Positions 1 to 26,308 are shown, numbered from the stretch's first letter. The stretch: DNA of 32,569 nucleotides from Lachnospiraceae bacterium (GCA_022768745.1 JALELK010000105.1:1-32569); one strand, 5' to 3'. Program-made: numbers and translations. The notes: generated by a model not told the origin, from the letters alone.

Positions 1-252
1 AATTCCCTGCATCAACAACATCAGCAACAGGTAAACAACCAGCAGCCGGACAAATGCATTTCCAAAAGACGCATTGTCGATGATAACCTTTGAAATCTGA
101 ACCATTACAAGTGACGCAACCGTACTTGCAATTCCGAGAAACATGACAAGTATAATTTTCCCTATGTACGGTTTGGAATACTGCATCAGCCACTTCATAT
201 ACCGTGCCTGATTCTCCCTGTCATCCCACATAGTTTTTAATCGTTTTATCAC
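1..252 (-). CDS. ABC transporter, N-terminal part (likely lasso peptide exporter D), runs off the window
   Basis: This is the first 84 codons of a membrane protein reading off the left edge. I chose the GTG at 252 because AGAGGG lies about 7 bases upstream and the nearer ATG codons run straight into stops. The protein begins MIKRLKTMWDDRENQARYMK and continues into long hydrophobic stretches (about residues 31-51 and 68-84), as in the transmembrane domain of a fused permease/ATPase exporter. The ATPase half is not visible, so the ABC assignment rests on the N-terminal pattern. It lies 18 bases downstream of the B1 gene, in the same unit. In lasso clusters an ABC transporter (D) exports the mature peptide and gives immunity, so that role is inferred from position. 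Confidence 0.72.
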   Translation of the reverse strand, partial: MIKRLKTMWDDRENQARYMKWLMQYSKPYIGKIILVMFLGIASTVASLVMVQISKVIIDNASFGNAFVRLLVVYLLLMLLMQGI

Positions 253-270
253 ATTATTACCCTCTCATGC

Positions 271-543
271 TTAGGCAATAAAGCCTAATTCCTGCATTTT
301 TCCCAGAAAATCCATCACAGACGCTTCGCATTCCTCCGGGCTGACTTCGTACTCTGCCAGCAGTTTATCAATAATCTGTCCCGGTGTAATATTCTTGTTT
401 TCCTGTAACATATCCCAGATATCATTACCGGTACCTTTGATCATAAAATACTTTCCCTGCTCAAAATCCACCATAACCTTTTCTCCTGCAAGGTCCGTTA
501 CATTAAGCTTTTTCTTTAATTCGATTGCCTGATCGCGTTTCAT
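271..543 (-). CDS. PqqD-like protein, lasso leader-recognition protein B1
   Basis: This 90-residue protein begins MKRDQAIELKKKLNVTDLAG and has the PqqD/RRE pattern: a short N-terminal strand region (GEKVMVDFEQGKYFMIKGTG), then helices with an acidic middle (DIWDMLQENK, IIDKLLAEYEV) and a C-terminal helix ending LGFIA. In lasso pathways this domain (B1) binds the precursor leader and presents it to the B2 peptidase. The start at 543 is preferred over an in-frame ATG at 585, because AGGAGGAG sits 8 to 9 bases upstream of 543 and nothing comparable precedes 585. It is followed closely by the ABC exporter and has its own promoter in the gap after the kinase gene. Its partner B2 lies almost 5 kb away, on the far side of the cyclase gene. 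Confidence 0.88.
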   Translation of the reverse strand: MKRDQAIELKKKLNVTDLAGEKVMVDFEQGKYFMIKGTGNDIWDMLQENKNITPGQIIDKLLAEYEVSPEECEASVMDFLGKMQELGFIA

Positions 544-607
544 ACTAAATTCTCCTCCTGTTTTCCTGATCTGAAATATCATCAATCTACTTAACTGAAT
601 AGTTATA

Positions 608-636
608 ATTATACTATACCCGATTTTCTAATTCAA
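608..636 (-). promoter_or_regulatory. Likely sigma-A promoter for the B1-exporter unit
   Basis: On the minus strand a TTGAAT -35 box (631-636) and a perfect TATAAT -10 box (608-613) are separated by exactly 17 bases. Transcription would start near 601, giving an untranslated leader of about 58 bases before the B1 start at 543. This suggests that B1 and the exporter can be expressed apart from the kinase gene upstream. Confidence 0.7.
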
Positions 637-638
637 AT

Positions 639-1562
639 TTATTTTTCCGCTGTCCATTCATTTAAAAATTCCGTTGCAGAATCCATAATCGCTTCGATGG
701 AATCCCCTTTCTGCGGTCTTCCTATAAAACCGCAAGGCACAGCCGCTGCCATTTTCAGACAAAGCTGCCCGATCTTTGGCTCATACTTCTTTGCTCCAAG
801 CAAATGCCGCAAAAACAGGTTGTTTGCGACAAGATAAAATTGATCCATGCCTTTTATCCGGCTTGATACAACTTCCGTCCCCGTAACAATGCCAAGCATG
901 CACATGCCCCGTACCGGAACCGATGTAAGACTGAAATTTCCGGTATACGGCACCAGAAATTTGTCCTTTTCTTCATCTATGTATATCATATCTTCCATAC
1001 GATAACCTTTTGCAAGTGCTGCATCTCTGCAAAGCTTCTGATACGGAAATGACGGACTTGCCATCGCAATTCCATCCCCCTTCACCTCAACAAACGCCAT
1101 ATCATCAGCCATAAGTCGATAACCTTTTTCCAAAAAAGCGGTCGTCACTGTCGATTTACCGGCTCCGCTCTCCCCGCAGATCAGAATCGCACCTGCTTCA
1201 TCTGCCACTGCACTGCAATGGATCGCAAGTATTCCTCTCTGCAAAGCAAGCATGGACATTCCCCATCCTAATAGGTACGATCGCAGATAATCCACCCTGC
1301 CGCCTTCCTTCAACTCGTAAGTAATCCTTTTTCCGTGTTCTACTATGATCCATGCCGTACCGTTTACCAGCCAGCTGAAATCATCCCCAAACTCGTATTT
1401 TACGTCGGTACGTTCCCGGATATCCTGCGGAATCTTTCCCTTTACAATCTCAATCTGGCAGCCATCCGGATGTTGCAGCCGATATTCTTCTGTCTCTTTG
1501 ACAAGTTGTGGAAACGCAAGATTGGAAACTATAGACATTCCATATAAACAATACTTATTCAT
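639..1562 (-). CDS. HPr-kinase-like protein, putative lasso-peptide kinase (copy 2)
   Basis: This 307-residue protein resembles the HPr kinase/phosphorylase C-terminal fold. It has a Walker A loop GESGAGKST (residues 130-138), an AIHCSAV segment just before it (113-119), RLMADD (149-154), and the FPYQKLCRDA and YIDEEKDKF blocks. True HPr kinases bind HPr of the sugar phosphotransferase system, but stand-alone relatives in lasso clusters, such as the paeninodin kinase, phosphorylate the precursor's C-terminal serine. The position beside B1, the exporter and A1 supports the lasso role. It is a paralogue of the kinase at 2016-2939 with the same block order, but it is richer in G+C and lies on the opposite strand, divergent from A1. 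It could serve another peptide, or be left from an older cluster. Confidence 0.82.
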   Translation of the reverse strand: MNKYCLYGMSIVSNLAFPQLVKETEEYRLQHPDGCQIEIVKGKIPQDIRERTDVKYEFGDDFSWLVNGTAWIIVEHGKRITYELKEGGRVDYLRSYLLGWGMSMLALQRGILAIHCSAVADEAGAILICGESGAGKSTVTTAFLEKGYRLMADDMAFVEVKGDGIAMASPSFPYQKLCRDAALAKGYRMEDMIYIDEEKDKFLVPYTGNFSLTSVPVRGMCMLGIVTGTEVVSSRIKGMDQFYLVANNLFLRHLLGAKKYEPKIGQLCLKMAAAVPCGFIGRPQKGDSIEAIMDSATEFLNEWTAEK

Positions 1563-1624
1563 TCACTGGTTTCCTTTTTTATCATTTAATATATTGTAAT
1601 ATATTTTTACGTCCATTTCATCTG

Positions 1625-1633
1625 ATTCTAGCA
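1625..1633 (-). promoter_or_regulatory. Possible extended -10 promoter for kinase copy 2
   Basis: On the minus strand TGCTAGAAT (TG-N plus a TAGAAT -10 box) lies about 63 bases upstream of the kinase start at 1562. No good -35 box is seen at 17 to 18 bases, so this would be an extended -10 promoter. It is divergent from the A1 promoter in the same 157-base gap. Confidence 0.4.
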
Positions 1634-1657
1634 TTTCTAACAATTTTGATATTTTTA

Positions 1658-1686
1658 TTTACATCACTAGAAAAATGGACTAGTAT
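1658..1686 (+). promoter_or_regulatory. Likely promoter for lasso precursor A1
   Basis: A TTTACA -35 box (1658-1663) and a TAGTAT -10 box (1681-1686) are 17 bases apart. An overlapping TATAAT lies at 1684-1689, but it would give a 20-base spacing. A small inverted repeat, ACTAG (1666-1670) and CTAGT (1680-1684), spans the spacer and the -10 box and could be an operator. A strong ribosome site, AGAAGGAG (1703-1710), lies 9 bases before the A1 ATG. Confidence 0.6.
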
Positions 1687-1719
1687 AATATAAGCAAACT
1701 TTAGAAGGAGCTAATAATT

Positions 1720-1932
1720 ATGAAAAAATGGGAAAAGCCTTCTTTAACTGAATTAAATATTTCTGACACGGCTTATGGTGGATTTTATTGGGATAACAAT
1801 CTTTTGGGCAATCATCCTGGTAATGGGAATTCTCATCATCCATGGAAGCCTCAACCACCATATAATGGAGGTTGTCCGGATAGTGGTAATGGAAATACTG
1901 GAACGGAATATCCTGAAGACCGTTTAAGCTGA
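1720..1932 (+). CDS. Lasso peptide precursor A1
   Basis: This 70-residue peptide has a leader, MKKWEKPSLTELNISDTA, of the paeninodin-like type: W-x-x-P then a hydrophobic ELNI stretch, with a conserved Thr near the cleavage site. The segment after it begins YGGFYWDNN and is rich in Gly, Asn, His and Pro, ending EDRLS. If Thr is at -2, as in known lasso leaders, the core begins at Tyr19 and Asp25 closes a 7-residue ring. If the core begins at Ala18, Asp25 closes an 8-residue ring. The core of about 52 residues is far longer than usual (about 15 to 26). The C-terminal Ser is the residue phosphorylated in paeninodin-type peptides. It has a good promoter and ribosome site, a terminator follows, and the kinase and cyclase genes are next. 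The ring prediction is inference. Confidence 0.8.
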   Translation: MKKWEKPSLTELNISDTAYGGFYWDNNLLGNHPGNGNSHHPWKPQPPYNGGCPDSGNGNTGTEYPEDRLS

Positions 1933-1944
1933 TATCTAATTTGG

Positions 1945-1975
1945 AAAGAGGCAACAGTTACTGTTGTCTCTTTTT
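1945..1975 (+). terminator. Rho-independent terminator or attenuator after A1
   Basis: The arms AGAGGCAACAG (1947-1957) and CTGTTGTCTCT (1961-1971) pair with one G-U, extend by two A-T pairs, enclose a 3-base loop and lead into a T run. It lies 12 bases after the A1 stop and about 40 before the kinase gene. The likely effect is more transcript for the precursor than for the enzymes downstream. Confidence 0.75.
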
Positions 1976-2015
1976 CGTCTACAATATAATCAAAAACTAA
2001 AAAGGATAATATAAT

Positions 2016-2939
2016 ATGCACAATAAATTATATTGGTACAAAATTTACGGAAATATTCTATGTTCTGAGATTGAATATCCACATCTAATTCGTACCGGAG
2101 AACAACTCCCTGATATTTTTATCAAAGTAACTTCACTTGTTCCTCCTTTGAAAGAAGGACAAACTTATTATGTATCTCCTATTACAAAAGAACATATTCT
2201 GTTCCATAATCAGGTTGGAAGTTTCCAGATTACACATGGCAGAACGATTGAAATGTGGCCAAATAAAGGTGTTACTCTAACACAACTTACGCCCTTTGTA
2301 TTTGGCTACTGCATTGCTATGCTATTCTGGCAACGTAATCAGATTGCAATTCACTGCAGTGCTGTCGAACGAAATGGAAAAGCGCTAATCATTGCTGGTG
2401 ACAGCGGTTCAGGCAAATCAACCCTTACTAGTAAGCTTCTGGAAAATAATTTTCACCTTATGGCAGATGATGTTGCAATTCTTGACATCTCTGCAAAGGG
2501 AGATATCATGGTATATCCTGCCTTTCCTCAGCAAAAACTCTGCAGAGATGCTGTGCATCGTAATCACTATAATACAGAAGATCTTTTATATATCGACGAA
2601 GACCGCGACAAATTTGCTATACCTTGTCGTGACCGTTTCTGTGAGTCCCCTACAAAATTATGTGCAATGCTATGCCTTTCTGCGCATCAGGGAAGCACAG
2701 ACGTTACACTATCTGAATTAAACGGCCATCAAAAGCTTCTTTCTTTTTTGGAAAATAATTTTCTTTTCCCAATGTTTCGCAATTCAGGTGGATTTGTTGT
2801 ACAAGATATGCAAAACTGTCTCCAGATAATTCAAACACTTGCAATTTATGCAATGATTCGTCCTGTCGGAATAGACAGCACAGATATGCAACTTGATAAA
2901 ATCAAAAAAACAATTTTTCAATCCAAGGAGGAAAAATAA
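2016..2939 (+). CDS. HPr-kinase-like protein, putative lasso-peptide kinase (copy 1)
   Basis: This 307-residue protein has the Walker A loop GDSGSGKST (128-136), preceded by AIHCSAV (111-117), then LMADD (148-152), FPQQKLCRDA and YIDEDRDKF. These are the blocks seen in its paralogue at 639-1562 and in HPr-kinase-type enzymes of lasso clusters. It lacks the N-terminal domain of full HPr kinase. It sits between A1 and the cyclase and overlaps the cyclase start by one base (TAATG), so coupled translation is likely. A1 ends in Ser, so phosphorylation of that residue is the most likely reaction, by analogy with paeninodin. Its base composition is AT-rich, like A1 and the cyclase and unlike copy 2. 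Confidence 0.85.
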   Translation: MHNKLYWYKIYGNILCSEIEYPHLIRTGEQLPDIFIKVTSLVPPLKEGQTYYVSPITKEHILFHNQVGSFQITHGRTIEMWPNKGVTLTQLTPFVFGYCIAMLFWQRNQIAIHCSAVERNGKALIIAGDSGSGKSTLTSKLLENNFHLMADDVAILDISAKGDIMVYPAFPQQKLCRDAVHRNHYNTEDLLYIDEDRDKFAIPCRDRFCESPTKLCAMLCLSAHQGSTDVTLSELNGHQKLLSFLENNFLFPMFRNSGGFVVQDMQNCLQIIQTLAIYAMIRPVGIDSTDMQLDKIKKTIFQSKEEK

Positions 2940-4873
2940 TGTCTGCCATATGGGGATTACTTTCACAAAATAAAGACACTATACAACCTGAATTAACCCT
3001 TTCCATGAAGCAACGTATGAGCAAATTTAAAATAGACCGTATCGATGATCTCATAGAAGATAAGCTTTATTTTGCATGTGGACATCAATATCTTACACCA
3101 GAATCTTTACATGAAATATTGCCCTATCATGACACAAAACACAATATTTATTTTACAGCAGATTGTATCATAGATAATCGTTCGGAACTATTAGACAAAC
3201 TTCAAGTCACAGATTCAAACATTTCTGATGGCATGCTCAGTTATCAAGCCTATCTAACATGGGGTGAACGTTTTGTTGATCATTTACTTGGTGCCTTTTC
3301 TTTTGCTATTTTCGATAAGGAAAAAGACACTTTTCTTCTATATGCAGATCATGTTGGAAACAGAACAATTAATTACTCATTGCAAGAACATACGCTATAT
3401 TTCTGTACAACCTACGATTTATTCAAAGAAAGCTTTTCGCCTCAACAATTACAACTATCTAAAAAATGGATTACTGCATGTGAAGCGGAACCTTCTGCCT
3501 GTATGATTCTCTTTCCAGGCCTTACACCGTTTGAGAATGTTTTCCAGGTCAAAGCAGCACATTACATAAAATACACCAATGGGACATTGTCAGAAATTCA
3601 ATATTGGAATCCCAAAAAAAGTAAAACAATTCTTTTTAAACAAGAAAATCAATACAAAGAACTTGTTACTCGTACATTTAAAAAATGTGTAGAAGACCTG
3701 TTACGTCCAGGCGTACATGTTGCAGCAAATTTGAGCAGTGGTCTTGATTCCACTTCAGTTGTCAGTATTGCTGCACCATTTTTAGAAAAGCGAGGCGAAA
3801 CTTTACATACCTATACGTCGATACCAGATGGACAGTATGACTACAAATTTGATGATTACTATGTTCCTGACGAATCCGCTGCTGTCCGGAAAACAGTTGC
3901 TTGTTTTCCGAATATCAAAAGTCATTTTATTGATTGTAAAGGTGAAAATGCATTAACCCATATGAAACAATATGTTGAAGAATACGATATTCCTTTGAAA
4001 TCTTCTGTTAATTTAAATTGGATATATAAAATCAACCAAGACGCTCGTGCAAAAGGCTGCACTATACAATTAACAGGTCAAACTGGAAATGCAACAATTT
4101 CTTTCGGAGATATTCTAACACTTACTTATGAACAAATCAGAACATTACATTTTGGTCAAGCAAAAAAAAGTGCATATGATTTTATTAAAAAAAATCATAT
4201 ACCCAAAAAATATTTTCTACATATATTTAGCACCACCTGGTTGGATAAAATGAAGGAATATATTGCAATTTCTGGTAAACATGATCAGTCAATGGTCAAT
4301 TCAGTTTTATTAAAAAAATATCATATTAAGGAAAATAGTCACAAGATGCTTCTTACTTATGGAAATGGTTCTATGCTTACAAATCGGCAAAGACGGAATG
4401 TTATTTGCTCGCAAATCACTTTTCAGCAAATCGGAATCTACAATACCATGTCCAGTTTGATAAATGGTATCATTGAACGCGATCCTACCAAAGATAAACG
4501 AATGATTGAATTGTGCATTGCTCTTCCAATGAGATGTTTTGTATCACACGGAACTGAACGTTATCTGGTACGTGGTTACTTATCAGATATTGTTCCTAAG
4601 CACATTATTTCAGATATCAATCACCGTGGATTACAGAGTGGAGACTATTTACAACGGTTAGAACGAAATTGGGATAATGACCGACTTATTGTCATAGAGG
4701 CATTAAATAATCCTCTTTTATCTCAATATATTAAACAAGAAAAAATTGATGAGATGATAAACTTTTGCAAAACAAATAAACTTGTTTGCGACAAAACGAA
4801 TGACAATTTAATCATCTACATTCTTTATACAATATCTCTCAGCTACTTTTTATCAGCAAATATCTATACCTAA
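2939..4873 (+). CDS. Asparagine-synthetase-like lasso cyclase C
   Basis: This 644-residue protein has the two-domain AsnB layout. The N-terminal glutaminase-like domain spans about residues 1-210, with GAFSFAIFDKE at 119-129 and Y-A-D-H-V-G-N-R at 135-142. The synthetase domain carries the ATP-pyrophosphatase loop NLSSGLDST (264-272). The residue after Met1 is Ser, not the catalytic Cys of true glutamine-dependent AsnB, so ammonia release from glutamine is not expected. This is the usual state in lasso cyclases, which adenylate an Asp or Glu side chain and join it to the core's first amino group. A GGAGG site ends about 7 bases before the ATG. It is the only cyclase in the window, so it would have to close the rings of both A1 and A2. 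A bidirectional terminator follows. Confidence 0.9.
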   Translation: MSAIWGLLSQNKDTIQPELTLSMKQRMSKFKIDRIDDLIEDKLYFACGHQYLTPESLHEILPYHDTKHNIYFTADCIIDNRSELLDKLQVTDSNISDGMLSYQAYLTWGERFVDHLLGAFSFAIFDKEKDTFLLYADHVGNRTINYSLQEHTLYFCTTYDLFKESFSPQQLQLSKKWITACEAEPSACMILFPGLTPFENVFQVKAAHYIKYTNGTLSEIQYWNPKKSKTILFKQENQYKELVTRTFKKCVEDLLRPGVHVAANLSSGLDSTSVVSIAAPFLEKRGETLHTYTSIPDGQYDYKFDDYYVPDESAAVRKTVACFPNIKSHFIDCKGENALTHMKQYVEEYDIPLKSSVNLNWIYKINQDARAKGCTIQLTGQTGNATISFGDILTLTYEQIRTLHFGQAKKSAYDFIKKNHIPKKYFLHIFSTTWLDKMKEYIAISGKHDQSMVNSVLLKKYHIKENSHKMLLTYGNGSMLTNRQRRNVICSQITFQQIGIYNTMSSLINGIIERDPTKDKRMIELCIALPMRCFVSHGTERYLVRGYLSDIVPKHIISDINHRGLQSGDYLQRLERNWDNDRLIVIEALNNPLLSQYIKQEKIDEMINFCKTNKLVCDKTNDNLIIYILYTISLSYFLSANIYT

Positions 4874-4882
4874 CTAAAATCA

Positions 4883-4940
4883 TCCAAATAAAAACCACTT
4901 CAATTTCAAAAGCCTGAAAATAAAGTGGTTTTTATTTGGA
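4883..4940. terminator. Bidirectional terminator between cyclase and A2
   Basis: Perfect 18-base inverted arms (4883-4900 and 4923-4940) enclose a 22-base loop. Both arms carry A or T runs, so the hairpin can stop the rightward cyclase transcript and the leftward A2 transcript. It lies 9 bases after the cyclase stop and 3 bases past the A2 stop. Confidence 0.85.
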
Positions 4941-4943
4941 CGA

Positions 4944-5120
4944 TTATTTAATTACTTCGATTTCTTCTCCACCTGCATTTCCGCCACTTGCGAAACTTGC
5001 CCATGCATCACCAGTTCTTTTATCAGTGTAAATTCCATCCATTTCATTAATATTTCTTCCACCGTAAGATGTCTCATTAATATTTAATTCGACAATTTCT
5101 GCATTTTTCCAATTCTTCAT
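4944..5120 (-). CDS. Lasso peptide precursor A2 (small gene)
   Basis: This short gene encodes 58 residues. The leader is MKNWKNAEIVELNINETS and the next segment begins YGGRNINEMDG and ends EEIEVIK. It matches A1 through W at position 4, ELNI, an acidic residue followed by Thr, then [AS]-Y-G-G, so the two are clearly related. If Thr is at -2 the core begins at Tyr19 and Glu26 closes an 8-residue ring. If Ser18 is first, Glu26 closes a 9-residue ring. AGGAG lies about 8 bases before the ATG. It lacks the leader Pro of A1 and the C-terminal Ser, so it is not an obvious kinase substrate. It lies after B2 at the end of a long leftward run and ends at the bidirectional terminator. I rate the relation to A1 high and the exact core uncertain. 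Confidence 0.78.
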   Translation of the reverse strand: MKNWKNAEIVELNINETSYGGRNINEMDGIYTDKRTGDAWASFASGGNAGGEEIEVIK

Positions 5121-5175
5121 AATTTCCTGCTCCTTTTCTCAAAAATTTCATTGACAATAGAAGCTTAACATACAT

Positions 5176-5204
5176 AGAATATGGAGTAAACTTTTCTAAC
5201 ACAA
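5176..5204 (-). promoter_or_regulatory. Candidate promoter for A2
   Basis: In the 122-base gap between B2 and A2, the minus strand carries TTGTGT (5199-5204) and TATTCT (5176-5181), 17 bases apart. Transcription would start near 5169, about 50 bases before the A2 ATG. Both boxes are imperfect, so this is tentative. It would let A2 be made apart from the polysaccharide operon. Confidence 0.35.
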
Positions 5205-5242
5205 TTGATAGAAACCTATCGAAATCACAGCTATCTTTTTTA

Positions 5243-5701
5243 TTAAACACTGAATTTATCAACGATAGAATATTCTGTTCCATCGCCTCCCGTTACATAA
5301 ATTTTACCACAACGTAACCATGCATGTGCAACCAACTTGCCCTCTTTTTCCCCGCATCCTAAATATAAGGTAGAATGAATTCCTTTTTTTTTAAGTATTT
5401 TCTGAGCTGTTAACGCTCGAACCAGACATTTGCTTTCCCATGCCGTCTTAGAACAAATTCGATCAACAACATTTGAAACATTAATGGCATAACGATATTT
5501 CCATGGTGCTTCCTCTTCTGGCGATTCCTGCCCTTCTGTTCCCCAACATTTCTGCAAATATTTAGGTTTAATAAAAAAAATTGCTAGACGAAAAATTGCT
5601 GAGTATATATACGCATATACTGTTAATCTTTTTTGTGGGTTGTATTTCAAAAATTTAATTATGTTCAACCATTTTACCTCATGATTCTTCTTTTCATACA
5701 A
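5243..5701 (-). CDS. Transglutaminase-like lasso leader peptidase B2
   Basis: This 152-residue protein has the stand-alone B2 layout: a helical N-terminal part, then the cysteine-protease core. The catalytic Cys is in ESKCLVRALTAQ (Cys92), the His is in LVAHAWLRCG (His126), and a likely Asp follows in GGDGTEY (Asp140). B2 cuts the leader from the precursor when B1 has delivered it. The gene overlaps the end of the glycosyltransferase gene by 28 bases, so it belongs to that transcript, and A2 follows it. B1 is encoded far away on the left, so B1 and B2 are expressed from separate units. The length is normal for the family (about 140 to 150). Confidence 0.9.
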   Translation of the reverse strand: MYEKKNHEVKWLNIIKFLKYNPQKRLTVYAYIYSAIFRLAIFFIKPKYLQKCWGTEGQESPEEEAPWKYRYAINVSNVVDRICSKTAWESKCLVRALTAQKILKKKGIHSTLYLGCGEKEGKLVAHAWLRCGKIYVTGGDGTEYSIVDKFSV

Positions 5702-6669
5702 TAAAGACCATATAAAAAATTAGGCATTTTGCAAAAGAAAAAACTTTTCACTCGATTTGGAAACAAACAAATATTTCCAAATCGTTCTACTACAGGTTTC
5801 ACCTTCTTATAGTATCCTTTTTCTTCTTCCTTACTTGTACATTTATAATATTTTATTTGAAACCAGCAATTAATTCCTGATTGAACGCTATCACGTCCCA
5901 TTCGGTTGATCAATTCCTTGCTGGCCCTTTTCATATCAAGAAATTTAATTCTATCAACTTGAGCTTCAAAATCATCAAATCTTTTAACTGAATATTTTCC
6001 TCGCATTATACTGCCTGGTGCCTGACGATAATAATATAAATATTGATTTATATAAGCAACTTTATGTGTTTTATAAACCAGTTTATGTATAATCCAATTA
6101 TCTTCATTTACCTTTCCTGCCGGAAAACGTATATCATCGAATAATGATTTAAGATATAATTTATTCCATGGGCAAATAAAACTTGTATGTATTCTTACAT
6201 TATCTTGCATTGTCCATAAATATTCTTCCTCAGAGTATATTTTTTCTTTCGGGTCTCCATATTTTTCGTTTATTGGTTTTCCATCATCATCGACTGCCAT
6301 ATATCCGCATACAACCATATTACAATTACTCTTTTTTAGTAAATGATACAATTCCATATACATATTATCAGCAATATAATCATCCGAATCAACAAATGCA
6401 ATATATTCACCATGAGCTTTTTCAATACCCAGATTTCTTGCAACAGACACTCCACTATTTTGTTGTTCTAAAAATACAATTCTTTTATCTTTCTCTGTCC
6501 ACTGCAATACAATTTGTCTGCTATTATCTGTAGATCCATCATTTACCACAATAATCTCTAAATTAGAATATGTCTGACAACAAATTGATTCCAAACACTT
6601 TCCAATATATTTTTCAACATTATATACGGGAACAATAACGCTAATTAATGGCAATGTTTCTTTTTTCAT
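5674..6669 (-). CDS. Family 2 glycosyltransferase beside the lasso peptidase
   Basis: This 331-residue GT-A enzyme has ISVIVPVYNVEKYIGKCLES near the N-terminus, NDGSTD (43-48) and the nucleotide-sugar binding DSDD (94-97), then VCPWNK-type acceptor-side sequence (ICPWNKLYLK). No transmembrane anchor is obvious. It sits 16 bases after the nucleotidyltransferase gene and overlaps B2. It may decorate the polysaccharide like the other GT2 enzymes of this locus, or it may modify the lasso peptide. Position between two lasso-type genes favours considering the second, but sequence alone cannot decide. Confidence 0.88.
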   Translation of the reverse strand: MKKETLPLISVIVPVYNVEKYIGKCLESICCQTYSNLEIIVVNDGSTDNSRQIVLQWTEKDKRIVFLEQQNSGVSVARNLGIEKAHGEYIAFVDSDDYIADNMYMELYHLLKKSNCNMVVCGYMAVDDDGKPINEKYGDPKEKIYSEEEYLWTMQDNVRIHTSFICPWNKLYLKSLFDDIRFPAGKVNEDNWIIHKLVYKTHKVAYINQYLYYYRQAPGSIMRGKYSVKRFDDFEAQVDRIKFLDMKRASKELINRMGRDSVQSGINCWFQIKYYKCTSKEEEKGYYKKVKPVVERFGNICLFPNRVKSFFFCKMPNFLYGLYCMKRRIMR

Positions 6670-6685
6670 ATATTTTCACCACTTT

Positions 6686-7852
6686 CTATTTAAAATGTAA
6701 CTGCATTTTTTGATAAATATTTTTATATACCAAAATTTTATCTTCTTCAATTTTGTGAAGCATTTTTCTCTTTTTTGATCCCTTATTCATAAAGATTCCT
6801 CTACATGCACGAATCATCCAGGCGATTGGCAAAAGAATTGTTTTGCCCTCCAGCCAGGGATAATACTCTGTCATATAAGTCATTGGTGGAAAGAAATACC
6901 ACAATTTAAGCTGTTTTGTAGATGTTGATTTTTCTTTCATTTTTTCTTCTGAAAACTTATGCCATATTCCATTTTCATCTTTTCCATAAATTCCACTATC
7001 TAACATATAATCAAATAATTGTTGTTGGAATGAAGAAAATGGAAGTCTTTCTAACCAAGTAATTGCAAGTTCTTCCATATATTTTGCAAATATGTCTATG
7101 CCTAATTTTTTTAATTCTGTATCAATATATTGACGATCCATATTTTTTTCATACTTGTTCAAATATACATATATATCTACAAGATTCCGAATTCCACATC
7201 CCATCACATAAAAATGTTTCGCCATATGTGCAATCATATATATATAAAAATCATCAACGCCAAAATCATAAGTATATGCATGTCCTTCTTTTAATTTTGC
7301 TTTTGAAAAATCCGAAAAATACTTGTATTGGTTATTGTCCACAGTCTTGTCATACATAGCTTTATGAGCTTCTATTACCATAAATGGTTTTTTCACATAA
7401 ATATCATGATGTTTAATTGCCTGTTGCAAGGAATATCCCATACCTTTTAACACTTCGCCCGCTTTTTCCATATAACCGCATTTAATTAAAACATCTATAT
7501 CCGACATTTCCCTCATTTCCGGTGATGGATAAATAAATTTCATCCATGCACCTTTCATTGGCTGATTCACAATTTCATTTTTTTCAAACCGTCGGACCAT
7601 TTCCTTATATTCCATAACTTGTTCAGTTGTTCTAACAATACTCCGCATCACATAGTTACGCAATATTTCCTTCCATTCTTTACTAATTCCGGTTGTCTTT
7701 AATAATGCTCCTAAAAGCAGATAATCCATATGATTTATATGCGATAAATGTACTAACTCTTCTATTTTCACACCATCTGGAATCGAATTAGCTTTGCATC
7801 CATCCAATTGTGAACGTACAAGTTCTGCTAAATAATCAGATAATACTGACAT
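6686..7852 (-). CDS. Nucleotidyltransferase family protein (NTP_transf_5 type)
   Basis: This 388-residue protein has the fold's hallmarks: a K-G-A-W-M segment (100-104) followed by YPSPEMREMSDIDVLI (108-123), where Asp118 and Asp120 form the metal-binding D-x-D. This is the pattern of the uncharacterised nucleotidyltransferase family PF14907. Members recur in lasso clusters that also carry an HPr-like kinase, and in pseudomycoidin the protein was reported, as I recall, to act on the phosphorylated peptide and add hexose. The gene lies 18 bases after a small membrane-protein gene and leads into the glycosyltransferase, B2 and A2. A role in peptide tailoring is inferred. A role in the polysaccharide is the alternative. 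Confidence 0.8.
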   Translation of the reverse strand: MSVLSDYLAELVRSQLDGCKANSIPDGVKIEELVHLSHINHMDYLLLGALLKTTGISKEWKEILRNYVMRSIVRTTEQVMEYKEMVRRFEKNEIVNQPMKGAWMKFIYPSPEMREMSDIDVLIKCGYMEKAGEVLKGMGYSLQQAIKHHDIYVKKPFMVIEAHKAMYDKTVDNNQYKYFSDFSKAKLKEGHAYTYDFGVDDFYIYMIAHMAKHFYVMGCGIRNLVDIYVYLNKYEKNMDRQYIDTELKKLGIDIFAKYMEELAITWLERLPFSSFQQQLFDYMLDSGIYGKDENGIWHKFSEEKMKEKSTSTKQLKLWYFFPPMTYMTEYYPWLEGKTILLPIAWMIRACRGIFMNKGSKKRKMLHKIEEDKILVYKNIYQKMQLHFK

Positions 7853-7870: not shown

Positions 7871-8173
7871 CTAATTACTTTTCAAACCATCATTTCCAAA
7901 CCACTGTTCATAAATTGCGTAAAAAGCCATTGCCAAAGCTGCTCCTTGCAAAGCAATACACAATTTGAAATGAGTAATGCCAAGCCAAACCAGCACAAAA
8001 CAATAACTAACTATTGCAACAATAATTGTCACTATAATCACTATAAAATTCATACGTTTTCGCTTGACATAATTATCCGTCAAATCATTTGTAAGTTTTT
8101 TTATTGGGATTTTTATAAGAAACATCAAAGCAAATGTTATGGCTCCAATAAAAAATATGATTATACAATTCAT
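7871..8173 (-). CDS. Small membrane protein, paralogue 1
   Basis: This 100-residue protein has three hydrophobic stretches (about 3-22, 42-62 and 70-90). A motif, ITFALMFLIKIPIKK, follows the first helix, and YAIYEQW is near the end. The neighbour upstream carries ITFFLMFGLKIPIKN and YAIYDQL in the same places, so the two are diverged tandem copies. I do not recognise a function. Size and topology recall holin-like or accessory membrane proteins, but nothing here proves it. It sits one base after its paralogue, within the polysaccharide run and next to the lasso block. Confidence 0.7.
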   Translation of the reverse strand: MNCIIIFFIGAITFALMFLIKIPIKKLTNDLTDNYVKRKRMNFIVIIVTIIVAIVSYCFVLVWLGITHFKLCIALQGAALAMAFYAIYEQWFGNDGLKSN

Positions 8174-8174
8174 T

Positions 8175-8534
8175 TTATTTCCTTCCTATTTGAAGCTGAT
8201 CATATATTGCATATTCAGCCAAAGCAAACACACCACTCATCCCCATCATATGCCATGAAAAATGAATTAATGGTGAGATATACGAAATAATTCCAAATAT
8301 TGCTCCTGCCAATATAATTACCAATAAAATAATTAAAATATTAGCTTTTTTCTTATATTGTTGATATTTATGTTCCCATGCTATATTAACCTCTATTTTT
8401 TTCTTTATCCATGCCTCAATCCTATTTTTAATTGGAATCTTCAAACCAAACATTAAGAAAAATGTAATTGTTGCAGCTAACAAAGCATGCAGATCATATA
8501 TATGTGATTTACAGTAACTTAGTATCAAATGCAT
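8175..8534 (-). CDS. Small membrane protein, paralogue 2
   Basis: This protein of about 119 residues starts MHLILSYCKSHIYDLHALLA and has three hydrophobic segments, with TFFLMFGLKIPIKN after the first and AEYAIYDQLQIG near the end. I set the start at 8534 because the longer frame to 8600 would overlap the GT32 gene by 50 bases; a weak AAGGA lies about 12 bases upstream. It aligns with the neighbour downstream through the KIPIK and YAIY[ED]Q motifs and has an inserted charged stretch (about residues 45-70). Function is unknown. The pair may act together in the membrane. Confidence 0.65.
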   Translation of the reverse strand: MHLILSYCKSHIYDLHALLAATITFFLMFGLKIPIKNRIEAWIKKKIEVNIAWEHKYQQYKKKANILIILLVIILAGAIFGIISYISPLIHFSWHMMGMSGVFALAEYAIYDQLQIGRK

Positions 8535-8550
8535 CTTTAATATCTGTCCT

Positions 8551-9408
8551 TTATAATTCTGGTAAATTTTCTCCTTTTTTTTGTGCAAGAGAGTATGCAT
8601 AAAATGGTATCTTCTTATTCAATTTCAAATATCGTCTTTTTCTGATCAAAATTTGTGTTTTTTCATAAATCCATGGATTTTTCATCAGAATTCTTTTAAT
8701 ACTATTTTTTAAAGTTTTTCTGCTATCATTCTTTACTCTCCATACTCCTGCACAATAATGAATCGTATATTGTCTATTCAATAAAGAACCTATTTCAAAA
8801 TATTCTTTAGGATAAATCACAAAATCACCTAAATTCTGAAATTTGTTATTTAATTTAAAATGTGGATAATGCTTTAATATATAATATGTAAAATAATAGT
8901 TGTTTGTAACGAATTCATTTACATAAAGATTTCCATCTCTTTGATCAAATATTTTTCCGTTTGTATTATCATTCTTTTGCACAAAAACAGTATCCTCGTA
9001 CATTTGGAGTAAATTTTTAATAAATTGACTTTTCGGTTCGGCCCCTATAACTGCTGATCCAACAGCACAATCAAATATAAAATTCAAAAAAACAGGATAA
9101 TTTAAAAGTGGATCAAAGTCACGAAAAACCTTAACATCAGTATCTAAATATATACCACCATATTCATATATACCTTTTAAGCGATAAAAATCACTGATAA
9201 AGGCAAATTTTCTCTCTTTATAAGCTCTTCTTACAAACTCATTCTCATCAAAACTACAATTTGATTCATTCCATTCAATGATTTGATATCCATCAAGCTT
9301 TTTCCACGAATCCACACATTCTTTTAATTGTGGTGGCAATGGGTTCCCTCCAAACCAGCAATAATGAATAATTTTTGGAATTCTTGTTTCACTTCTCTGT
9401 ATATTCAT
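8551..9408 (-). CDS. GT32-type glycosyltransferase
   Basis: This 285-residue protein begins with IPKIIHYCWFGGNPLP (10-25), the classic opening of Gly_transf_sug (GT32) enzymes in capsule loci. It continues with YEYGGIYLDTDV (81-92), whose D-T-D (89-91) binds the metal and sugar nucleotide, and AGVWRVK near the C-terminus. It would add one sugar to the lipid-linked repeat unit on the cytoplasmic side. It sits between the flippase and the two small membrane proteins in the same run. Confidence 0.9.
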   Translation of the reverse strand: MNIQRSETRIPKIIHYCWFGGNPLPPQLKECVDSWKKLDGYQIIEWNESNCSFDENEFVRRAYKERKFAFISDFYRLKGIYEYGGIYLDTDVKVFRDFDPLLNYPVFLNFIFDCAVGSAVIGAEPKSQFIKNLLQMYEDTVFVQKNDNTNGKIFDQRDGNLYVNEFVTNNYYFTYYILKHYPHFKLNNKFQNLGDFVIYPKEYFEIGSLLNRQYTIHYCAGVWRVKNDSRKTLKNSIKRILMKNPWIYEKTQILIRKRRYLKLNKKIPFYAYSLAQKKGENLPEL

Positions 9409-19789: not shown

Positions 19790-22024
19790 TTATTTCTCAC
19801 AATTAACATTTTGAACAAGTTTTGTATTATAATCACCAATTATAATTTTATCCCATTGTTCTTTGTTTCCCAAATATTTAACTTTATCTAACGCAGTTCC
19901 GTCAAAAGCACGTTCCTGAATGTTTTCAACATTAACAGGGATTTCAATTTCTTGTAAGCTATGGCAAAAAATAAATGAGTTTTTCCCAATTACAATCAGG
20001 CTTTCCGGCAGCTGCACTTGTGATAAATTTTCACATTCCCTAAATAATTGTTCTCCAACCTTTGTAATGCCATCACTAATTTCAACTTTTACTATTTGTT
20101 TTCTGTAATCAAACCAAGGGGCCGGCTTTTGGGAATGATAGTTATATGTTTCTCCATTACCTGTAATCTTTAAAACTCCATCATTTGATAACGAATAACA
20201 AACATCCTTTCCGCATTCACCCTGTATTTCTTTCGTACTATTTGCTGTAGAATTTATTTGTTCAGACAAATGTAGCTTTTTATATAATAATTCATTTGTT
20301 TCTTTGGTATTTATTTTGTTCCAATCATCACCCGCATAATAAATATTGGTAATAGTAAAATATGGTAATGAAGAATCGCCAAGTTCTTTTAAAGTTGACG
20401 GCAAGGTTATTGTCGATATTCCAATACAATTATAAAAAGTTCTTGATCCAATTGTACGTAATCCTTCTGGCAACTCAACCTCTTTTATAGAAGAACAATT
20501 AAGGAACAATTGATGGCCTAATCCATCTATCCCTTCTTTTACTATAACCTTCTTGATTTCCCCACTATAGTCCATCCATGGCGCTTTATTTTTTGAATTA
20601 TAGGAATATGTCTGTCCAGTTCCTTGCAGTGTAAGAATACCAGCCTTATTCAATTCATAGGTTATATTTTTTCCGCATTGTCCAGAATCCAGTATTTCAT
20701 TTGCATTTGATAATAAACTATTTTTTTCATCTTCTGAAATAAATACTTTCTTTCCACTCCAATTCATAAACCTGATTTGCGTCGCAACACCCTCAAACGT
20801 TTCATCATAGCAAACAGCATATTTCACATTCTTATCTATAGTTATATCAATGTCAAATGGCATTTCCGAATACTTATCATTGCATGTCATATCATTTCCT
20901 TTTTTACATGCTGGAATGATATATTTATATTCGCCCAAATCTGTAATTATCTTTAATACTCTGTCTCGATTTGTATCATTGCTTACACTAAAATGTGTTT
21001 TGCCATTTGTTTTCCATACAGAGGCCACATATAAATTTTCTGTTTCTTCGATCGATCCAATTGATATTCCCATTGTTCCGCGATGATATATTGCCTCATA
21101 TTTTTTTGCACAACCAAACCTTACATTACATATTTTCAAATCATCTAATGCAATATTATCATTTGCACATGCATATATACTATAACCACCACCATTTAAA
21201 ATACAATCTGTTACATAGATTGATTTTCCACTACTTTTTCCCGGACTTATTGTAATACATGCATTGATACTTGCTTTGCTTCCTTCTGGCACTACCGGTG
21301 GAATTTCAAATCTGCAATTAGAAAAAGAAATATCTTTCATATCGATACCTGTAGCGCCAAAAATCTGTACACCATCGGAATGAACATCACCTTCTAAATT
21401 TTTCATACTGCCAAAATCTGTAAAAAAACAATTTTTCACTTCGACTTGTTGAAATGGATTCATTCCATCATTATAAGTTTCACCTATTTTACACCTGTCA
21501 AAACTTGCATTACTGCCATAAAAGCTTTCAATTGAGCAATCATTAAATTTATACGAAATATTACCACAGTTTTTATCTAAAATTATTTTAGAAAATTTGC
21601 AATTATTAAACACAAGACAAATTTTCCGTTTTGTTTTATCAAGACTATATTGTGTAATCGGATAAGCAGAAAAATCATAATTTTCTATTGTTACAGTTCC
21701 GACAATATTTTTATTACGATAATAAAAATCAAATACATTTTTTGTTGCATTACTACCACCCACAAGTTGAATTTCTCCAATTTTAGCTCCTAATGCAACT
21801 TTTTCAAGTTTTCCTTTTGCTCCAGTATTATATTTATCTGGAATCACATTCAAATCATCTGCAGTTTGTTCTACAAGTACAGTTCCAGTTTCTTCCGTCC
21901 CACTAAGGGCAATTGGATCATCTTCAATTTTTACATAAGAATTATTTCCTAAAGCGACCCCTGTTAACAATACAACGAGTCCCAACATCACTATAGACGC
22001 ACGTATTACTCTCTTTTTTCCCAT
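19790..22024 (-). CDS. Secreted beta-helix/LRR surface protein, larger paralogue
   Basis: This 744-residue protein has an N-terminal signal sequence (about 1-27). A conserved VIPDKYNTG block (60-68) leads into a right-handed beta-helix-like region (about 95-330) with repeated N-C-x-F and D-C-x-I turns, and a HSDGVQIFG motif at 215-223 like those at the active face of beta-helix lyases and epimerases. A linker domain follows, then two copies of a C-G-K...APW module, each followed by BspA-type LRR repeats (about 448-580 and 600-744). No LPXTG anchor is seen. AGGAGA precedes the ATG, and a short 6-base-arm inverted repeat (22069-22086) lies upstream. A role in cell-surface polysaccharide binding or modification is inferred from location. 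Confidence 0.8.
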   Translation of the reverse strand: MGKKRVIRASIVMLGLVVLLTGVALGNNSYVKIEDDPIALSGTEETGTVLVEQTADDLNVIPDKYNTGAKGKLEKVALGAKIGEIQLVGGSNATKNVFDFYYRNKNIVGTVTIENYDFSAYPITQYSLDKTKRKICLVFNNCKFSKIILDKNCGNISYKFNDCSIESFYGSNASFDRCKIGETYNDGMNPFQQVEVKNCFFTDFGSMKNLEGDVHSDGVQIFGATGIDMKDISFSNCRFEIPPVVPEGSKASINACITISPGKSSGKSIYVTDCILNGGGYSIYACANDNIALDDLKICNVRFGCAKKYEAIYHRGTMGISIGSIEETENLYVASVWKTNGKTHFSVSNDTNRDRVLKIITDLGEYKYIIPACKKGNDMTCNDKYSEMPFDIDITIDKNVKYAVCYDETFEGVATQIRFMNWSGKKVFISEDEKNSLLSNANEILDSGQCGKNITYELNKAGILTLQGTGQTYSYNSKNKAPWMDYSGEIKKVIVKEGIDGLGHQLFLNCSSIKEVELPEGLRTIGSRTFYNCIGISTITLPSTLKELGDSSLPYFTITNIYYAGDDWNKINTKETNELLYKKLHLSEQINSTANSTKEIQGECGKDVCYSLSNDGVLKITGNGETYNYHSQKPAPWFDYRKQIVKVEISDGITKVGEQLFRECENLSQVQLPESLIVIGKNSFIFCHSLQEIEIPVNVENIQERAFDGTALDKVKYLGNKEQWDKIIIGDYNTKLVQNVNCEK

Positions 22025-22130: not shown

Positions 22131-23816
22131 TTATTTATACTGAATTTTTGTCCAATTGGAGAATGCCAAGTCTCCTATACTCTTTATTTGATTTGGCAAT
22201 TGTATTTTCTGGAGATAGAAACATCCATAAAACGTTCTACTTCCAATTGTTTTGATTGTGGAAGGTAATGTTACCTTTTGCACCGCAATACAATCAGAAA
22301 AAAGCTGATTCCCAAGTGTGGTAATTCCTTTATTTATCTTTATAGTTTTAATAATATCTGCCTGTTTTATCCATGGTGCAGGCTCACCTGAATTATAAGA
22401 ATATGTCTCCCCTTTTCCTGACAGGGTAAGTACTCCATTTTTCGTAATTGTATACTTTACATTTTCGCCACATTTTCCAGATGCAATAATATCTTTTTTT
22501 CTAGAAAATAGTTTTTTCCCCTCTTTCTTAGTCAAATATACTGTTTTTTTACTCCAGTTCACAAACCGAATCTGTTTTGCTGCTCCAGAAAAAGTGTTAT
22601 CATAACATATAATATATTTGCATTGTTTTGGAATGATAATTTTCTGATCAAAGGGCATATCTTCATACTTGTCTTTCGAAGTCATTTGGTTTCCTTTTTT
22701 GCACGCCGGAATGCTATATTTAAACGCTCCTTTATCCGTAATCACTAGTAATTTACGTTGTCGACACGTATCATTTGTAACACTAAGAAATGTCTTGTTC
22801 TTCTCTTTCCAAACAGAGCTAATATACAATTTATCAGTCTCACTCATGCTATAAAATGACACTTCTGGTGACATTTTTGGATAGACATTTCCATATTTTT
22901 TAGCACAACCTACTCGAATATTTTTAAACGATGCATTCTTTAAATTATATACATCAAACTTACTTTCGGCATATATGCTATAACCTCCCCCATTTACAAT
23001 ACAATCCTCAAAGTGAATGTTTGTTCCATTACTATATTCAAGCTGTAGCATAATACATGCATTTACTCCCGCTTTGCTACCTTCTGGGGCAATTGGCGGA
23101 ATTTCAAATCTACAGTTTTTATATATTATATTTTTTGCATCGATATCTTTCCAGCCGTATATCTGTGTTCCATCAGAATGAATAGTTGTATCTATAGATT
23201 TTTTACTACCCAAATCATAAAAAAAGCAATTCTTCACTGTAACATTTTGAAACGGATTTAAGCCATCATTATAACTTTGCCCAAATTTGCATCTGTCAAA
23301 CATTGCATTACTTCCAGAAAAATTATGAAATGAACATCTTTCAAACTCCAATTTTATTTTTGTTGTGGATCTACTTCCTGCAAACTGAGAAAATTTACAA
23401 TTTTTAAATACAAGCTTGATGTTTCTGTCTATCTGATCTGCATGATATATAGAAAGCGGACATACAGAAAAATCATAATTTTCAAATATAATCGTTCCTT
23501 TTTTCTTTATATTCATATAATAGAAATCCAATACATTTCTTGTATTGTCACTTCCGCTCATAAATTGTATATTTTCTATCGTATCAGCCAACTGTACTTT
23601 CTTTAGTTTTCCGGATGTTCCAGTATTGTATTTGTCCGGTATTATTAACTTATCATCCACTGTCTGACGAAGGCATGTCACTCCTTGCTCTTTATTTGTC
23701 GTAGCCGCATATGTTTGCCTGTTCATATCTGCTTTTTCCAATAGTCCAGAACAAACCATTACAAGACAACATAACAGAAGTGCCTGTTTTCTCCATACTC
23801 TTATCTTCGTTCTCAT
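22131..23816 (-). CDS. Secreted beta-helix/LRR surface protein, shorter paralogue
   Basis: This 561-residue protein is clearly homologous to the next gene downstream over its length. It has a signal peptide (about 1-38), IIPDKYNTG (58-66), a beta-helix-like part with the HSDGTQIYG motif (213-221), IPPIAPEGSKAGVNACIM, IPACKKGNQM, and one C-G-E...APW module with LRR repeats (about 450-561). It ends at IQYK, about where the paralogue enters its post-LRR segment, so it carries one module and not two. I see no frame in the following gap that would continue it. It follows the acetyltransferase gene by 46 bases. A tandem duplication with later loss or gain of the second module is likely. Confidence 0.8.
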   Translation of the reverse strand: MRTKIRVWRKQALLLCCLVMVCSGLLEKADMNRQTYAATTNKEQGVTCLRQTVDDKLIIPDKYNTGTSGKLKKVQLADTIENIQFMSGSDNTRNVLDFYYMNIKKKGTIIFENYDFSVCPLSIYHADQIDRNIKLVFKNCKFSQFAGSRSTTKIKLEFERCSFHNFSGSNAMFDRCKFGQSYNDGLNPFQNVTVKNCFFYDLGSKKSIDTTIHSDGTQIYGWKDIDAKNIIYKNCRFEIPPIAPEGSKAGVNACIMLQLEYSNGTNIHFEDCIVNGGGYSIYAESKFDVYNLKNASFKNIRVGCAKKYGNVYPKMSPEVSFYSMSETDKLYISSVWKEKNKTFLSVTNDTCRQRKLLVITDKGAFKYSIPACKKGNQMTSKDKYEDMPFDQKIIIPKQCKYIICYDNTFSGAAKQIRFVNWSKKTVYLTKKEGKKLFSRKKDIIASGKCGENVKYTITKNGVLTLSGKGETYSYNSGEPAPWIKQADIIKTIKINKGITTLGNQLFSDCIAVQKVTLPSTIKTIGSRTFYGCFYLQKIQLPNQIKSIGDLAFSNWTKIQYK

Positions 23817-24553: not shown

Positions 24554-26308
24554 CTAAAACTCTCTCATTAATTGTTCGATTTCTTTCATCTGCAACTGTC
24601 TCATTTTCTTATCAGATATCTGATAGACCCGGTCACACATAGATAATACACTAGGTCTATGTGTAGTAAGAATGCAGGTCTTCCGACCAGTTTTTTCCAT
24701 AAGATTACGTAGTAGCATCCGCTCTGTTGCAACATCAAGTGCTGAAGTTGCTTCATCCAACAATAGCACCGGGGCATCGCATAACAATGCCCTGGCGATA
24801 GCCAGACGTTGATTTTGACCCTCTGAAAATCCTATGCCTGCTTCTCCAATTTCATAATCCAATTGATTGGGCAATTTTTGTACAAACTCATATGCACAAG
24901 CCTTTTTTAATGCCTCTATAATTTCTTCATCCGAAGCTTCTGGTTTCATCATAGCAATATTTTCCCGTATTGTTCCATGCATCATCGTATTTCCCTGGGG
25001 TACATATGCAATTAATTTTCTCGTCGAAACTGATAATTTTCTTTTTTTATTTTTTAGTGTAAAATAAGTACCTCCCTGTTGCCCGGCAACAATGCAAAGT
25101 AACAAACGAAGCATCGTCGTTTTTCCTTCGCCTGACGCTCCAACCAAAGCAACCGTTTGCCCCTGTGGTACTTCGAAATTTGCATGATCAAACACTTTCT
25201 TACCGTTATGATATGAAAAGCTCAGATTTTCTACTTTCATTCCCAAACCATACTGTAAAGCATCTTTTTTTAATTTTTCTATATCATCATTGATATCTTT
25301 TTCTTCTTCAAGTGCCAGCATTGCCTGTACACGCTCTGCTGCCGTAATCGTCCCCATCGCAGTAGGAATCATTTGGATCAACGACTTAAAATTTGATGAT
25401 ATCAATCCTGCCATAACTAAAATAAGAGCCATCGTTCCAAGCGTAATCACACCTGTATATATATGATATACTGCCCACCCAAGACATATCAGAGCAACAA
25501 ACTGACCACATACATACATAACACTCCATGACAATAGCGAATATTTATTTACATCCAGATCCTTGTCCGCCTTTTGCCTCTGCACCACTGCTTCTTTTTC
25601 ACAAAATGTCTCTTGCAAACCAAACGCCTTTATAGACTGTAAATTTGTAAAAGTCTCCTTATACAAAGACGTCAGATTACTTGCAGCTGTACGCTGTTCA
25701 CGATTGCTGAAATATGTTTTTCCCAGAAAAATACGTGAACTTGCCAGCAGAATGGGGGCAACAAGAATAATAACCACAAGCATACTTGCATCATAATAAA
25801 GAATGACTCCCAATGCCAACAGAACCTGAACCGTATTGATTATAACTGAAGGCACCCAACCCACAGTGCTTCCCGCAACAGTAGAAACATCTTCCTGAAT
25901 ACGCGTCAACATATCACCGGAATCAAATTCCGCAAGTTGCTCCCATTTTGCATGTACAAGTTTACTGTAAGTTTTTGCACATAAATCGCTTCTCACTTTT
26001 ATATTGATTGTTGCAGATAACCGTTGTCCCCCAACCGATAGCACAACATTAACAAGGCCTACGATAATATAAATCAAAAGCAATGTCATTATTTTCATCC
26101 AATTTTCTGCAAGAAGGTAATCGATTACTCCCTTTATCTGTACACTGAAAAATGTCGTAATCAGCATACTGACCATACTGATAGCAGAATATGCAAGTAA
26201 TCCTTTTTTATGCTTGTTTACAAGCGCATAAATCCATATAATCTGTCGAAAAGCCTCCTTTACAAAACCTTCTTTTATTTTTTTGATTACTTTTTTTATT
26301 TTATTCAT
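24554..26308 (-). CDS. ABC exporter, fused permease and ATPase
   Basis: This 584-residue half-transporter has six membrane helices (about 35-310) and an ATPase domain (about 357-584). The ATPase domain has Walker A GASGEGKTT (390-398), a signature FSEGQ (494-498) in place of LSGGQ, Walker B PVLLLDEATSALD (513-525) and the switch His in TTHRPS (about 550). It is complete. The substrate is unknown. It lies between a sugar aminotransferase and an acetyltransferase, while Wzx is present elsewhere, so it may export something other than the main polysaccharide, for example a peptide or a second glycolipid. Confidence 0.88.
   Translation of the reverse strand: MNKIKKVIKKIKEGFVKEAFRQIIWIYALVNKHKKGLLAYSAISMVSMLITTFFSVQIKGVIDYLLAENWMKIMTLLLIYIIVGLVNVVLSVGGQRLSATINIKVRSDLCAKTYSKLVHAKWEQLAEFDSGDMLTRIQEDVSTVAGSTVGWVPSVIINTVQVLLALGVILYYDASMLVVIILVAPILLASSRIFLGKTYFSNREQRTAASNLTSLYKETFTNLQSIKAFGLQETFCEKEAVVQRQKADKDLDVNKYSLLSWSVMYVCGQFVALICLGWAVYHIYTGVITLGTMALILVMAGLISSNFKSLIQMIPTAMGTITAAERVQAMLALEEEKDINDDIEKLKKDALQYGLGMKVENLSFSYHNGKKVFDHANFEVPQGQTVALVGASGEGKTTMLRLLLCIVAGQQGGTYFTLKNKKRKLSVSTRKLIAYVPQGNTMMHGTIRENIAMMKPEASDEEIIEALKKACAYEFVQKLPNQLDYEIGEAGIGFSEGQNQRLAIARALLCDAPVLLLDEATSALDVATERMLLRNLMEKTGRKTCILTTHRPSVLSMCDRVYQISDKKMRQLQMKEIEQLMREF

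Follow-up and report, generated by a model that had tools for sequence, protein, structure and literature searches.

The question raised by the first 7852 nucleotides of a contig from a Lachnospiraceae bacterium of gut or rumen type (GCA_022768745.1, JALELK010000105.1:1-32569) is what becomes of two dissimilar precursor peptides, A1 and A2, that are encoded together with two HPr-kinase-like peptide kinases, K1 and K2, and a lasso-type macrolactam cyclase, C. The window, by which we mean the whole stretch of 32,569 nucleotides, is the entire contig C23 of a genome of 2.0 Mb that is 87.7% complete and divided over 116 contigs. That it belongs to the Lachnospiraceae was deduced from a genome of the same family, whose cyclase is identical to that of Falcatimonas (L003 and L014). 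A preliminary description of this DNA had proposed a split lasso gene set on both strands, merged with a capsule locus and yielding a phosphorylated and perhaps glycosylated lasso peptide pair. All genes that it named were found at 1-7852, on both strands, and the Pfam and NCBIfam profile searches of the window proteins by which gene families were called bear out these families, and with them the reading as a lasso-type cluster that includes kinases and a nucleotidyltransferase (NT). We interpret the locus as a Lachnospiraceae gene cluster for a phosphorylated lasso peptide that adjoins an exopolysaccharide locus. The best explanation of its products, to which we give a probability of about one half, is one phosphorylated lasso peptide from A2 and one acceptor-less, probably linear phosphopeptide from A1, the latter most likely due to loss of the ring acceptor and of a second cyclase, C'. 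For comparison, genome contigs were scanned with an alignment of four cyclases, which yielded 80 loci, and the Butyrivibrio plasmid pNP243 and 13 stretches around K1 relatives were added; these loci (L numbers; genomes have G numbers) were annotated by phmmer and by leader pattern.

That A2 is the substrate of C can be proposed from sequence with good confidence. The best NCBIfam model for C is the lasso cyclase NF033535 (215.7 bits), of which the strict cut-off of 525 is not reached, and cyclases of relatives with a clear lasso context also score under this cut-off. The preliminary description would have been undone by C being an ordinary asparagine synthetase with a Cys2. C begins with MSAIWG, and an ordinary glutamine-hydrolysing AsnB was ruled out since Ser2 replaces the Cys2 glutaminase residue; in the tree, C groups with the lasso-context cyclases of L111, L119, L120 and L123. 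The precursors of these four loci show the pattern of A2, with D9 and a WASFxSG-type tail. In A2, the leader (WKNA...NETSY) precedes a core starting with GGRNINEMD, so that a [Y/W]xxP-type motif, the Thr and an acid within positions 7-9 (D9) are all present, the P of WxxP being Ala as in INlla14 and the L111 relatives. The pattern T-x-x-Gly1...Asp9 is the one proposed in silico for Lachnospiraceae (PMC7533575). The counterpart in G137 (L111:17197-17373), which reads MKAWENAELVELEISATAQGGKNLDQIDNYWTDKNTGDLYASYASGGNKTGEEFEVIK, aligns to A2 end to end, and in Butyrivibrio-type loci a precursor lies on the opposite strand directly 3' of the kinase and cyclase genes (K-C), in the same convergent place as A2. 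It is this shared place, together with the Asp9 pattern and the alignable precursors in C-clade loci, that marks A2 as the C substrate. A2 carries an internal Ser in WASFASGG rather than a C-terminal Ser.

Of the lasso peptide pair proposed earlier, the A2 half thus stands as a canonical precursor, whereas A1 has no Asp or Glu at the conserved acceptor positions. Its leader, MKKWEKPSLTELNISDT, is of the same kind as lasso leaders and Trp-type, and in its core, GGFYWDNNLLGNHPG..., there is no acid at T+9 to T+11, counted from the leader Thr. Such an acid occurs in 124 of 132 leader-pattern matches near cyclases or kinases; five of the eight exceptions are clearly spurious, and the three genuine ones are A1, L085:13198-13344 and L076:16303-16440, all with a terminal Ser and a Pro/Gly-rich core. 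The acceptor-less form is thus not unique to the window. The A1 core begins with GGFYWDNNL, in which the only acid, D6, is outside positions 7-9 (it becomes D7 if cleavage occurs one residue earlier). The choice of register rests on the conserved Asp at T+11, which is shared by most precursors of Lachnospiraceae and also by those of the C clade: it fits a 9-residue ring only if the Thr is at -3. Thr(-3) is therefore preferred, and it leaves A1 without an acceptor at 7-9.

The reading frame of A1 is intact, its ribosome-binding site (AGAAGGAG) is strong, and promoter-like -35/-10 elements are present. The hairpin that follows it folds with a minimum free energy of -18.3 kcal/mol (z -4.6); a consensus terminator scanner listed no terminator in the region, although folding gives a strong hairpin. 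The hairpin and T run are consistent with production of A1 in excess over K2-C. Across the family, A1 is best matched by K1-associated precursors, those of G137 and G420. Matches to the core region elsewhere in Lachnospiraceae (e.g. L150 and L152) were discarded, being in unrelated frames, and a search for plasmid relatives of A1 gave none that was credible.

A possible origin of A1 emerges from the kinase K1. In the kinase tree, K1 belongs to a clade of ten Lachnospiraceae kinases (support 100/99) and K2 to a clade with L119 and L120 (99/98); a recent duplication is ruled out by these separate clades. Orthologs of K1 (57/56/47/44/41% identity) were found in 5 of 397 sampled Lachnospiraceae genomes (G137, G399, G156, G326, G049), and the same five genomes, and no others of the 397, hold C'. 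This asparagine-synthetase-like protein without Cys2 forms its own clade apart from C and scores under the NCBIfam lasso cyclase cut-off, so that it is not called by that model. The C' genes at L111:8915-10849, L112:1450-3360, L113:12203-14146 and L115:13242-15260 each adjoin a Glu8 precursor (A1'). A1', C' and K1 are neighbours in L111, L112 and L113; L115 has C' next to A1', and K1 lies on that contig too. The four A1' cores (GLFPAMYE, GLFDSNYE, GFFDSDVE and GLIDIGWE) all have Glu8, and A1 aligned to them (GGFYWDNN) has Asn8. Judged by sequence, C' is a separate cyclase lineage with Glu8 precursors, present in five genomes here, of which no description was found in the open-licence literature searched. 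The relation with K1 is not exclusive, since K1-clade kinases accompany C-type cyclases in L116 and L118. Plasmid relatives of K1 were weak ones only.

C' was not found in the remainder of the window genome assembly, which is incomplete and in which the contig ends in the exporter. Two matches were rejected as C': one on contig C10 is an asparagine synthase at the TIGR01536 level, and one on C107 begins with MCSIMG and is a true AsnB. The C10 protein (L002:793-2652, G000:C10; TIGR01536 358 bits) begins with MSSIAGY and is thus without Cys2. Next to C' in L111 lies a third precursor (8556-8792), whose core of 60 residues is rich in Gly and Asn (WWGGGPGYDGRGGGRPGND...). A further family of precursors, characterized by the core AH.W.G.Y.DGGYIGDG.ISGH and an Asp8, occurs at L118:9422-9625, L122:8777-8980 and L169:1435-1635.

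In the proposed pathway, B1, the PqqD-like recognition element (RRE) for ribosomally synthesized and post-translationally modified peptides (RiPPs), would bind both precursors via their common Trp-type leaders, and the peptidase B2 would cleave both leaders. Paeninodin-type RREs favour Trp leaders (PMC13381572), and since A1 and A2 both have the Trp, one B1 can serve the two. C would close A2 into a Gly1-Asp9 lasso, K2 would phosphorylate a Ser in its WASFxSG tail, and NT may decorate the resulting phosphate. A1 would stay linear after leader removal and be phosphorylated by K1 at its C-terminal Ser. In pseudomycoidin biosynthesis, PsmK phosphorylates the C-terminal Ser and PsmN adds a hexose to the phosphoserine (PMC9266682), and the tailoring set of the paeninodin and pseudomycoidin type is present here with K1, K2, a PF14907 NT and the C-terminal Ser of A1. 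In a lasso locus, at L111:6421-8493, an HPr-kinase-like domain and a PF14907 nucleotidyltransferase are naturally fused into one protein of 690 aa, which supports the notion that kinase and NT act in sequence. The most likely ancestor of A1 would be a Gly1...Glu8 lasso precursor of the kind found in A1'-C'-K1 sets, with subsequent loss of the acceptor and of C'. What is read from the DNA is which genes are present, that A1 lacks the acceptor, how the clades fall and that K1 and C' co-occur; every chemical step, the pairing of kinases with peptides and the linearity of the A1 product are predicted. Somewhat short of an even chance is given to the wider idea that a matched pair arises from one recognition and cleavage machinery, one member being a phosphorylated lasso (A2) and the other a linear phosphopeptide (A1), whose lasso ancestor gave up the ring acceptor and its dedicated C' but retained the leader, the kinase and the C-terminal Ser. 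If true, this would be a second, independent route to phosphopeptides like the linear polyphosphorylated peptides (LPP). No description of a lasso and an acceptor-less precursor sharing one B1/B2 set was found in the open-licence literature searched.

Several observations weigh against a linear A1. The conserved leader Thr is at -2 in experimentally studied lasso precursors (PMC10368454), whereas Thr(-3) is an in silico proposal for Lachnospiraceae (PMC7533575). With Thr(-2), A1 begins with YGGFYWD and ring closure at D7 is possible, the acceptor of A2 then being Glu8; furthermore, A1 sits directly upstream of K2-C, a site at which one would expect a lasso precursor. C could therefore be envisaged to close A1 between Tyr1 and Asp7, within the accepted acceptor range of 7-9 (PMC9266682), giving two phosphorylated lassos, one with a 7-residue ring. 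We regard this as rather unlikely, because Thr(-2) strips most Lachnospiraceae precursors, those of the C clade included, of an acceptor at 7-9, and A1 would need another register or ring size than A2 with the same B2 and C. C' may also simply be missing, given that the assembly is not complete and that the contig breaks off within the exporter at position 1; A1 would then be the substrate of an off-contig C' that cyclises it in an unusual way. C' stands directly beside A1' in L111, L112, L113 and L115, but after A1 comes K2-C, the E8 of all four C' precursors is Asn in A1, and no C' was found in the rest of the assembly, which makes this possibility distinctly improbable. The finding of K1-clade kinases beside ordinary C-type cyclases counts against the proposed origin as well. 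The absence of both acceptor and C' could further mean that a former A1'-C'-K1 module is in decay and that A1 and K1 are its remnants, a possibility to which we attach little probability: the frame and expression signals of A1, including its hairpin, are intact or strong, K1 has kept its P-loop and full length, and two other genomes retain acceptor-less precursors.

Membership of A1 in the LPP family itself is the least probable of the alternatives, and very much so, even though its core bears a suggestive resemblance to that family. When the core was scored without preselection against 11,832 small open reading frames, the six top non-self matches were all LPP precursors (family of PMC13381572). 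The score of the best pair (L045) was reached by none of 5000 shuffles and by 2 of 2000 dipeptide-preserving shuffles; that of the weakest of the six was often reached, and composition-adjusted BLASTP gave an E value of only 0.012. Convergence of Gly/Asn/Pro-rich tails may also explain the likeness. The assignment was rejected on leader, kinase and peptidase: the A1 leader is WEKPSLTELNISDT and not YxxPxVLxHQxIxFETxxS, and A1 has no Ser3; K1 is outside the LppK clade, LppK being far from both K1 and K2 in the kinase tree; and a SpI-type leader peptidase is absent from the window, with one sub-cut-off match elsewhere in the genome. The preferred reading remains that of a lasso-derived, probably linear A1.

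Table 1 Features at the left end of the window
Feature	Position	Strand	Evidence
Start of ABC exporter (D), cut by contig end	1..252	-	49% identity over 83 aa to exporter of orthologous G137 cluster; phmmer 72 bits
B1, PqqD-like RiPP recognition element	271..585	-	PF05402 69.6 bits, above Pfam cut-off
K1, HPr-kinase-like peptide kinase, distinct Lachnospiraceae clade	639..1562	-	HprK-like P-loop; tree clade
A1, precursor, lasso-type leader MKKWEKPSLTELNISDT, C-terminal Ser, no acceptor at conserved positions	1720..1932	+	
Terminator-like intrinsic element (hairpin then T run) between A1 and K2	1940..1975	+	Folding
K2, HPr-kinase-like peptide kinase, lineage other than that of K1	2016..2939	+	HprK-like P-loop; tree clade
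C, lasso-type macrolactam cyclase without Cys2	2939..4873	+	Asparagine synthase domain; NF033535
A2, canonical lasso precursor, T-S-Y before GGRNINEMD (Gly1...Asp9), tail motif WASFASGG	4944..5120	-	
B2, transglutaminase-like leader peptidase	5243..5701	-	NF033537 77.4 bits (cut-off 33, exceeded); PF13471
GT2 glycosyltransferase, candidate member of peptide pathway	5674..6669	-	PF00535 135 bits
NT, PF14907 nucleotidyltransferase, PsmN-like	6686..7852	-	PF14907 144 bits

Among the remaining cluster genes (Table 1), B1 scores 70.7 bits against the lasso PqqD model NF033536, of which the cut-off of 80 is not reached, and its nearest solved structure is 9x90_B, a lasso PqqD chaperone (E 3.5e-12). 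NT scores 499 bits against the NT adjoining B2 in L111. The best relative of the GT2 enzyme among the compared loci is the GT2 adjoining B1 in L113 (243 bits); since GT2 enzymes of capsule loci score similarly, it is only a candidate for the peptide pathway rather than for the adjoining capsule genes, and glycosylation of the product, as suggested earlier, is only possible. Because the window is a whole contig, position 1 truncates the cluster, and the rest of the exporter and anything past it are missing; no convincing continuation of the exporter was found on other contigs of the genome. A second, complete ABC exporter in the polysaccharide locus (window 24554-26308) is the genome's best match (32%) to the L111 lasso exporter. 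The polysaccharide locus also encodes two paralogous secreted proteins with BspA-type leucine-rich repeats (19790-22024 and 22131-23816), and two small membrane proteins without Pfam match (7871-8173 and 8175-8600) have look-alikes adjacent in L111:2374-3049.

A kinase, an NT, GT2, multiple precursors and a capsule context have all been described before. In Lachnospiraceae, lasso genes accompanied by a kinase, a nucleotidyltransferase and GT2 are reported, as are genomes with several precursors (PMC7533575), lasso clusters inside capsule loci occur with a second phosphopeptide system (PMC13381572), and two kinases with multiple precursors also recur in L029, L085, L111 and L113 of the compared loci. 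The rarity that the preliminary description attributed to the combination could thus not be upheld. If A1 is linear, phosphorylation, and not the knot, may be the common functional feature of capsule-linked peptides, and lasso and LPP-like systems could interconvert by losing a single residue and a cyclase.

The closest known systems are the Butyrivibrio and other Lachnospiraceae lasso clusters (PMC7533575; L005, L007-L012, L111), which share K-C with a convergent precursor, B1, B2, NT, GT2 and exopolysaccharide genes, as well as Trp-type leaders, a Thr three residues before Gly1, Asp8/9 and sometimes several precursors. Compared to these, the window adds K1 and the acceptor-less A1, without the C' that accompanies the closest relatives of K1. 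Paeninodin (PadeK) and pseudomycoidin (PsmK, PsmN; PMC9266682) have in common with it A, B1, B2, C, an exporter and a kinase for a C-terminal Ser, and the pseudomycoidin NT, which adds a hexose on the phosphate, is of the same family as the NT found here; the window differs by its gene order, by longer cores, by its two dissimilar precursors and by having two kinases that belong to separate lineages. LPP systems (PMC13381572) likewise use a kinase, RRE, NT and exporter without ring closure, lie beside lasso clusters in capsule loci and have a Gly/Asn/Pro-rich core like that of A1, but the window lacks their Tyr-type leader, their SpI peptidase LppS and their LppK kinase. The locus of Fredinandcohnia quinoae (L085) is similar in that a single cyclase and a single B2 accompany two kinases and two precursors, of which one is normal and the other acceptor-less; unlike in the window, its kinases are of the Bacilli type, and the acceptor-less peptide has a kinase, an RRE and an exporter of its own next to it.

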